Source: Candidatus Hydrogenedentota bacterium | Lineage (GTDB): Bacteria; Hydrogenedentota; Hydrogenedentia; Hydrogenedentales; JAEUWI01 | Reading direction: 5' to 3' | Assembly (NCBI GenBank): GCA_016791475.1 | Contig: JAEUWI010000051.1 | Span: 1 to 52,696 of the forward strand | Length of the DNA: 52,696 nt | Shown: one piece after another, positions 9,326 through 12,340 of the stretch | Position numbering within the stretch: position 1 is the first letter of the stretch | Layout: every line of letters starts with the position of its first letter | Notes under the pieces: model-generated | Seen by the model: the letters and a program-made list of their open reading frames with translations, nothing else | The model's database searches: none | What the model was told of the DNA's origin: nothing | Program-made: the position numbers and the translations under genes

Positions 9326-11750
9326 TCAAGGTGCGTCAATTGTATCCGTGAGGCCCTCGACATCATCTTCGACCACGCCGACATGAATCCCGTCTTTCTC
9401 CGTTTCGATTTCCGCGATGCCCAAGTCGAAGTGGACGTTCGTCGTCCGACCGGCAACCACCTGGACGCTCTCCTCCAGTGTACTCCCCCCGCTTTCGGGC
9501 CTGTAAGCCCTGATCAAGTATTCGCCTGGTTCCAACGTCGCGCCAGACTGCGGGAAGGTTTCGCCTCTTTCCTCTTCCTCCGTCATGAAAAATGGGTTGG
9601 GACCTTGCCGCTCGAGCACTGCTGTAGCGTCCGACGATTCGAGCAGATCGATTTGTGCTGCGTACGGATCCTCCCCGTCCGACACGGTCACGTGAATTAT
9701 CCCGCCAATTTCGTCGAAACTGATATCCAGATTATTTGCGCCGCCGTCGTATATGTTCAATCGTTTGTACACGGAGGATTGTTGAAATCGACCTTCGTCC
9801 GTCCAGAAGTATGCACACGCTAGATACTGGCCCCCTTCCAGCCCCGTCATCTCGTAGGTGCCATCGGGTCGTACATAAACGGTGTTGTGGCCTATCCGAA
9901 CAGAACAGTAGCCGTCTTCCGGGCGTACTTTGTCGCTGCCGGGTGGTGGTCCTCCCTGATACGTCACGCGACCGCGCACGGACGCGCCTCGACCAAGATA
10001 AACAGCCAACGGCCCATTTGTGCTCGTGACGGACACCTGCAAGGCTTCCCGGGCATAGCCCATCGCATCCACGTGCAACACCAAGTCGGTGTAGGCCGGA
10101 AGGTCCGTCAGGGTGAACGAGCCATCGTCCTTCGTCCTTACAGCGAACGTTTTGCGAGGCACTTCCACCATATCTGACGGAAGGCGCACCCATGCGTTCG
10201 CGATCGGCTCCCCTTGTCCGCTCATCATAGACAACACCGCCCACCTGCCCACCGGGTTCGAGTGCAATGACGACTCCTTCGGACGCCTCCCCCTGATACA
10301 ACCCGGTCGCGACGCTGCTCCCCAAATAACCTGACGCAATTACGTCCAGCTTACCGGCTCCGTACTGCCCTTCAATCTGGAACTCGCCCGAAACGGACTC
10401 GAAGTCTTGCCACACAGAATTGATGGGCATGCCGGTATCAGGATTGCGCATCGGTCCGGGACCATCTAACCGCAGCGAGAATTCTGGTATGGGCGCGTCC
10501 GTCTCCGCATCGACCACCCGCCCAGAAAGTAGCGCGGGACGCATTAATATCACTTGGACATCCGACGTACCCAGCCGGACGCTATCTACGGTGCGAGACA
10601 CGTAGCCCGGCATGCTGCAAGAAAGCGTGACATACTTCGACATTCTCCCCGCTTGAATTGTCGGTACGGGTTTGCTCACGTTGATGCGAAAGTTACCGTT
10701 GGGATTGGTCGCCGCTATCCCCCGGCTCTTGCCGCCAGTTACCGAGACCGTCACGTCTCGTATCGGCTCGCCGTCGGCATTCACCACCACGCCGGATACA
10801 AAACCCACTTCGGCCATGGGCGGCGGCGGAGGGATCTCAATGGTGGCCGGATCATTTTCCGCTCCTCTAAAAGTTCGCTCGATCAAGTTCCCCGCCACTG
10901 CCTTGGCGGTGGCGACCACGCTCTTCTCTTCGACCGGGGCCGTATTCGCCCCTGATACGGTAGTATCGCGAACACGGTCGCCTTGATTGGGGGTGGTATA
11001 AAGCGCGACCAGGGCCACGGCCGCCGCCGATGTAATCAATTTCAAGGCCTTGGTAGGTTCAAAAATCGCCGCAGCCAGTCCACCAACATTCAGCGCCTCC
11101 GTGCCCGCGCCACCCATGCTGGCCAATTGCGCCCCCCAATCTGGCCGGGGCAATAACACGATCGCGCCCATGACCCGGTATATGCCCGTAGCGGTCTGCT
11201 CGCGCTCCCCTCCACCCCACTCGCGCAGCAGGCGGTCGCCCAGTAGATCACGCCCGCGTGCGAGGCGCTTCACGACGGCGTTCGTGTTCAGATCCAGGCG
11301 CTCACCGATCTCGCGACATTTCAGTCCCTCGAAGTAGTGAAGCAATACCACCTCGCGAAGATTTTCCGGCAGGGCCTCCACCTGCCGCGCCACGGCGTCG
11401 AGGGTTTCGCGCCGTTCGTGATCGGGATGGACCAGCGGATCGATTGGACAGGCCTCGGCATTCCGCCGCTCCCGCTCGCGTCGGCGCACGAGCGATATGG
11501 CGCGGTTCCGCGCGATAGCCACGAGCCACGGCGCGAGGCGCTCGCGATTGCGCAGCACGCCCAGGGTCTCATAGGCCTTGATGAAGGTCTCCTGGGCCAC
11601 ATCTTCCGCGTCGGCCACATTCCCCGTTTTCGCCAGGGCTACGAGCCGCACCGTGGCAAAATAGCGCTCCACCAGGGAACGAAAGGCGTCCGTCCGCCCC
11701 GAGAGCACCTCCCGAATTACCGCGCCGTCGTCTGTTGCGTTCACCGCCAC
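9326..11750 (-). pseudogene. Frameshifted membrane-tethered ECF sigma factor with carboxypeptidase-regulatory-like domains
   Basis: Two overlapping reading frames (11750-9732 and 10339-9326) make one protein of about 806 residues if one base is removed between about 10208 and 10226. The start is a GTG at 11750 with GGAGGA six nt upstream. Residues 20-95 are sigma-70 region 2 (DAEDVAQETFIKAYETL) and 117-177 region 4 (LPENLREVVLLHYFEGLK..., helix-turn-helix CREIGERLDLNTNAVVKRL). A hydrophobic segment at 235-252 could span the membrane. Beyond it are four to five beta-sandwich repeats of CarboxypepD_reg/Ig type (GVVVNADGEPIRDVTVSV, GRVVDAETDAPIPEF, GEPIANAWVRLPSD, GRVTYQGGPPPG). Before the shift both halves are normal and the out-of-frame tails look like noise. 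A G4 tract at the junction makes a homopolymer indel likely, either natural or from sequencing. Confidence 0.85.
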
Positions 11751-11842: not shown

Positions 11843-11938
11843 TTTTGTGCCATGGAAAACTCAGCTATCCATGAGCCCAATTTGCAACCGTCACCGCGCT
11901 CACCGGGTCCAAGGGTCTTTAACGGGATGGGATCGATC

Positions 11939-12340
11939 ATGTCACTCAGCGCACTACTTTTGTCACTTTTACCCTTTCTTACGGGCGTGCCCGCGGCCGA
12001 AGCCCCCGCCGAGCTGGATCCGCCGGAGATTCGCATTGGCGAGGCGCTGTTCATGGAGACGCGCTTCGCGGAGTATTTCGCCGAACACATGACCGGCATC
12101 AATGAGCCGCTCGTGCATGGCGACCCGGTGATGGACGCGACCGCCACCACAAACGGCGCGCTGCCGGGCCCGTTTCGGGGCAAGAGCATGAACTGCCGCG
12201 CCTGCCATCTGGTGGACGAATTCGCGTCGACGCCCGAGCAATCCGGCGCACCCCAGGCGGGCATGCGCACCTATGCGGACTTTGCCCAGCGCAGTTCCAT
12301 CCCCGATCGGGGCGATGGCCTGACCCACGCCATCGGTTAG
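11939..12340 (+). pseudogene. Truncated di-haem cytochrome c peroxidase-like protein
   Basis: A 133-residue exported fragment. The ATG at 11939 is followed by a signal peptide (MSLSALLLSLLPFLTGVPAAEA). One c-type haem site CRACH is visible at about residue 87, with a preceding region typical of di-haem oxidase/peroxidase proteins (EIRIGEALFMETRF...). Complete family members are about 350-550 residues and carry a second CxxCH. Here a TAG stop comes right after DGLTHAIG, where the next frame continues with VRNA, the motif expected at this point in the family, but that frame soon loses similarity. I read it as a decaying gene: a frameshift plus loss of the C-terminal two thirds. Confidence 0.65.

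Follow-up and report, generated by a model that had tools for sequence, protein, structure and literature searches.

A one-chain ECF sigma factor with a predicted membrane anchor and a carboxypeptidase-regulatory-like outer half, a layout common in the uncultured phylum Hydrogenedentota

Sigma factors of the class represented by SigW, sigmaE and AlgU are released when an anchored anti-sigma factor undergoes regulated proteolysis. For ECF sigma factors that are instead fused to their own membrane anchor, knowledge has so far come mainly from Actinobacteria and a single Pseudomonas protein. One such fused sigma factor, with one membrane segment, is IutY of Pseudomonas putida (ECF243); it is cut by Prc and then by RseP (PMC9249621). 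In the actinobacterial group ECF52, the outer part consists of a proline-rich stretch with a ligand-type domain (PMC5826349; PMC8999054). Here, we describe a gene of a Candidatus Hydrogenedentota bacterium, located in a window of 52,696 nucleotides (the whole stretch of DNA that was analyzed). For its product a sequence-only reading had proposed ECF sigma regions 2 and 4 followed by a hydrophobic segment and an outer half, and this order is borne out by the Pfam domain matches (Table 1).

Table 1. Features of the fused sigma factor gene, with positions in the window and residues of the read-through protein.
Feature	Position	Strand	Basis
Fused ECF sigma / membrane segment / sensor gene	9326..11750	minus	807 aa after reading through a single frame break
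Sigma-70 region 2 (residues 26-93)	11472..11675	minus	Pfam PF04542 Sigma70_r2, E 1.1e-13; same place by genome search
Sigma-70 region 4 (residues 118-168)	11247..11399	minus	Pfam PF08281 Sigma70_r4_2, E 1.6e-11
Cytoplasmic linker, predicted (residues 169-234)	11049..11246	minus	AlphaFold2 helices 182-199 and 205-212
Single hydrophobic, predicted membrane-spanning segment (residues 235-253)	10992..11048	minus	Mean hydropathy 1.62; homolog alignment; predicted helix 235-251
First CarboxypepD_reg domain (residues 318-397)	10560..10799	minus	Pfam PF13620, E 2.6e-8, 34.5 bits vs cut-off 32.3
Frame break	10205..10226	minus	One extra base at ~10214 vs continuous reading; phase switch, homolog continuity
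CarboxypepD_reg domain split by the frame break (joined residues 503-576)	10022..10244	minus	Pfam on the read-through protein
Remainder of the sensor half, with probable additional beta-sandwich repeats	9326..10021	minus	Alignments to L066, L068 and others

The upstream open reading frame of the gene (9732..11750) begins with a GTG start codon, which is preceded by GGAGG 7 nt upstream, while the downstream frame ends at the stop codon at 9326 and carries the remainder of a second CarboxypepD_reg domain (Pfam, E 2e-10). Since this match begins only at profile position 10, the frame break cuts the domain. A domain search on the corrected protein, which had been suggested along with the sequence-only reading, restored it: in the read-through protein, a CarboxypepD_reg match (profile positions 2-71) bridges the join at residues 512/513, with a family total of 70.1 bits. 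Homologs, such as L066 and L068, align across the join in a single frame, and the GC content by codon position changes phase where the break lies (0.68/0.48/0.70 in the upstream part; 0.63/0.45/0.65 past it, counted in the downstream frame). On these grounds, the downstream frame is a continuation of the upstream one, and the locus is best read as a continuous gene that carries one lesion of a single base. The proposal that the sigma and sensor parts belong to one chain thereby stands, and separate genes for the two parts are rejected because the homologs run unbroken through the break and the break falls inside a domain. A programmed frameshift is also not favored; it is needed by none of the homologs examined, and the site (CGG ACA AGG GGA) contains no familiar slippery motif. 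When a second copy of the junction was sought in the same genome, the junction was found once, and no near-identical relative was found among 40 genomes of the order.

We give appreciable, if minor, weight to the alternative that the break is a real mutation and this copy a recent pseudogene or truncated form, which would retain no more than the sigma part, anchor and first repeats and whose product would end with about 155 out-of-frame residues. The break is present in the assembly, the locus may be decaying, as its divergent neighbor appears to be a truncated cytochrome-like gene, and a homolog from another genome (L085) is interrupted after region 4. On the other hand, there is one lesion only in about 2.4 kb, with the coding signature and the domain match intact on both sides, as would be expected from an assembly error and, no less, from a very recent change.

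With 75.3 bits against the ECF sigma model TIGR02937 (sigma70-ECF; cut-off 42.9), and with regions 2 and 4 present and regions 1 and 3 absent, the fused protein is an ECF sigma factor. By Foldseek and sequence search, the proteins nearest to its sigma half in both fold and sequence are SigW, E. coli sigmaE and AlgU, with the matches covering the sigma part. AlphaFold2 (43 sequences) confidently modeled the sigma domains and in addition gave the two linker helices and the helix 235-251. Searching the linker for an anti-sigma domain, we obtained no zf-HC2, FecR or RseA match by Pfam in the fused protein. An anti-sigma fold was not recognized in the linker either, for which AlphaFold gave two short helices only, and the best Foldseek matches were sigma factors over the sigma part.

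As the sequence-only reading had assumed for a one-chain ECF sigma factor with a membrane anchor, no separate anti-sigma gene was present among the scanned neighbors. Seven zf-HC2 anti-sigma domains are encoded in the genome, six of them adjoining short ECF genes; none adjoins a fused gene or matches at the locus described here, and the two FecR matches of the genome are both located away from this locus. Thus, canonical sigma/anti-sigma pairs are kept in this organism, and its fused genes have no such partner beside them. The scanned neighbors encode MarR, DoxX, MgtE, LUD-domain, BNR and PD40 proteins in addition to the cytochrome-like gene and, in agreement with the earlier reading, give no obvious target. 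This last gene (11930-12340, plus strand) is divergent to the fused gene, contains a CxxCH haem motif and ends early at 12340; it is probably a truncated remnant, because no full-length homolog was found in 40 relatives. The genome encodes a full-length protease of the M50 family (RseP-type) as well as four of the S41 family (Prc-type), but since both families are almost universal, their presence is permissive only and proves little. The conserved ECF promoter motif that had been suggested as a further check did not emerge: in a set of 62 long ECF genes, fused or related, an AAC-type bipartite motif occurred in eight upstream regions versus 5.4 expected in shuffles, so that there is no sign of self-activation.

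The fused protein probably carries an outside signal to genes by itself. We consider it reasonably likely that the anchored sigma factor is held at the membrane and freed by regulated proteolysis as in IutY, which would amount to one-protein transmembrane signaling. The N-terminal ECF sigma domain would reside in the cytoplasm and be anchored in the inner membrane by the single helix, and the chain of carboxypeptidase-regulatory-like beta-sandwich domains would be placed in the periplasm. As long as it is anchored, the sigma domain would be stopped from working freely. An outside event on the beta-sandwich chain, be it a ligand, surface contact or damage, might expose the chain to a site-1 protease, upon which a site-2 protease of the RseP type would cut within or beside the helix, and the freed sigma factor would bind RNA polymerase and reach its putative target genes. 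This copy would then presumably function despite its break. Regulated proteolysis is supported by the resemblance of the sigma half to SigW, sigmaE and AlgU, a class freed by proteolysis of an anchored anti-sigma factor. The precedent of IutY points in the same direction (PMC9249621). The weakly hydrophobic segment, the lack of a recognized anti-sigma fold between region 4 and the membrane and of a conserved promoter motif, and the frame break in this copy count against it. Rather unlikely, in our estimate, is a sigma factor of the same anchored architecture that is active in the membrane or comes free through a shape change instead of proteolysis, with the beta-sandwich chain passing a conformational signal as in one-component membrane regulators. 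The linker, with a median of about 51 residues, would offer slack enough for a tethered sigma factor to reach RNA polymerase, and no anti-sigma domain was found that would need removing; however, cutting is what frees IutY, the only fused ECF sigma factor with an experimentally resolved activation by proteolysis (PMC8999054; PMC9249621).

For the sigma factor released by proteolysis, as favored here, the proposed anchor is the hydrophobic segment ALKLITSAAAVALVALYTT (residues 235-253), which is marginal when taken alone and among the weakest in the family. Its position matches that of every fused homolog, with 58 other non-redundant fused proteins having such a segment, and the aligned segments score mostly 1.7-2.6. 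In the resulting set of 59 proteins, the median distance from region 4 to the segment is 51 residues, and in 53 of them a further hydrophobic segment is absent. The summed charges of its flanks amount to 71 basic and 15 acidic residues on the sigma side and to 80 basic and 118 acidic residues on the other side, and therefore the net charge favors an orientation with the sigma half inside and the sensor half outside. Ala, Pro, Ser and Thr abound in the 50 residues past the segment. Taken as a whole, the sequence layout of the 59 proteins fits a predicted topology with an N-terminal sigma factor, one membrane segment and a C-terminal half outside. A segment that does not span the membrane, with the whole sigma factor being soluble in the cytoplasm and its extension being regulatory as in ECF41 or ECF42, would agree with the hydropathy of only 1.62 in this copy and with AlphaFold confidence of about 48-68 at the segment, but is very improbable given the higher values of the homologs at the same place, the Ala/Pro/Ser/Thr-rich stretch typical of exported linkers, and the presence of CarboxypepD_reg and STN, which are usually exported domains.

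Concerning the outer half, several carboxypeptidase-regulatory or Ig-like domains had been claimed. Two of these exceed the Pfam cut-offs, whereas about three more beta-type repeats are read only from the sequence and from homolog alignments, with no Pfam match above cut-off in the residual sensor half (9326..10021). The accompanying view that this sensor composition is uncommon has to be given up, as among the scanned fused sigma factors of Hydrogenedentota the outer domain encountered most often was CarboxypepD_reg, which is also found in Planctomycetota. Other fused sigma factors of Hydrogenedentota carry STN (L040, and weakly L061) or Sel1 repeats (L039) as outer halves, and in two fused proteins (L052, L037) no outer domain was recognizable. 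The same genome also contains a long ECF gene without a membrane segment (L063:4696-6414, minus strand), the C-terminal part of which resembles ankyrin repeats by eye.

The fused layout is common across Hydrogenedentota, and the nearest named relatives all belong to Candidatus Hydrogenedentota. Among the best 150 matches listed from 40 genomes of the order, 75 fall in open reading frames that are 500 aa or longer and 64 in frames shorter than 300 aa. In the genome under study, at least 13 of the 44 sigma region-2 genes (about 30%) are fused with a membrane segment. The sequence of sigma factor, membrane segment and extension was also present in Planctomycetota (L110, L125, L142 and L140, the latter being strain Pla86), Sumerlaeaceae (L091) and Verrucomicrobiales (L111). 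A tree of 125 sigma domains places the fused protein in a Hydrogenedentota clade (SH-aLRT 94) in which 35 of 36 rows are fused. The single non-fused row is L085 (993-4121), where an in-frame TAA parts the sigma factor from the linker, membrane segment and sensor; the copy may be a pseudogene, or it may give rise to a free sigma factor. Parsimony on the same tree gave seven changes of the fused state, with a single origin statistically still allowed.

Some further observations were made on the fused genes. They often occur in adjacent same-strand pairs of paralogs (L032, L046, L058, L059, L069, L125). Their third-position GC in L052-L062 is mostly 0.63-0.73, below that of most neighbors (about 0.71-0.88). 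One fused gene (L062, 4962-6863) is located between paralogous small secreted proteins on both sides (L062:4212-7630), which are a possible target set. A literature search found no work combining ECF sigma factors with carboxypeptidase-regulatory-like domains, although the 2021 ECF re-classification was outside this search and an earlier description is possible; judged by titles and term counts, no literature on Hydrogenedentes sigma factors was found either.

It is plausible, though short of probable, that Hydrogenedentota use, as a main outside-to-gene route, one-chain membrane-anchored sigma factors whose outer domains are interchangeable (CarboxypepD_reg, STN, Sel1 and others); these would have expanded to at least a dozen copies in the genome under study and would work without a recognizable anti-sigma domain, with the anchor itself acting as inhibitor. 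A layout that makes up such a share of one genome's sigma region-2 genes, recurs across an uncultured phylum and apparently lacks an anti-sigma domain raises the question whether anchoring alone suffices to silence a sigma factor. The relatives in Planctomycetota, including strain Pla86, for which a complete genome exists, may provide an experimental system, and the modular outer halves could become sensor parts in engineering.

Of the known systems, SigW/RsiW and RpoE/RseA are the ones to which the sigma half is closest, and the same logic of an outside signal, proteolysis and a free sigma factor would apply here; their anchor and sensor, however, are a separate anti-sigma protein. With IutY, the fused protein shares one chain of a cytosolic ECF sigma factor, a single membrane segment and a periplasmic regulatory half (PMC9249621; PMC8999054), which in our case is a prediction from the sequence. 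In IutY, the half in the periplasm resembles FecR and is linked to the TonB-dependent receptor IutA, whereas the protein described here carries CarboxypepD_reg repeats, has no FecR match in Pfam and is encoded without a TonB-dependent receptor gene among the scanned neighbors. ECF52 (SCO4117 of Streptomyces coelicolor), ECF48 and ECF53 resemble it in their long C-terminal extension with one or more membrane segments (PMC5826349; PMC8999054), but these actinobacterial groups have a zinc-finger anti-sigma domain before the membrane segment, while the fused protein has no zinc finger. A large C-terminal extension is also found in ECF57 from Planctomycetes, where it consists of WD40-type repeats for which a protein-interaction mechanism was proposed (PMC8999054), in contrast to the extension described here, for which Pfam gives CarboxypepD_reg-type domains only and no WD40. 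Measured by the described features of these groups, the fused protein therefore falls outside ECF243 (no FecR), ECF52, ECF48 and ECF53 (no zinc finger) and ECF57 (no WD40) and, provided that the proposed mechanism holds, would work like IutY.
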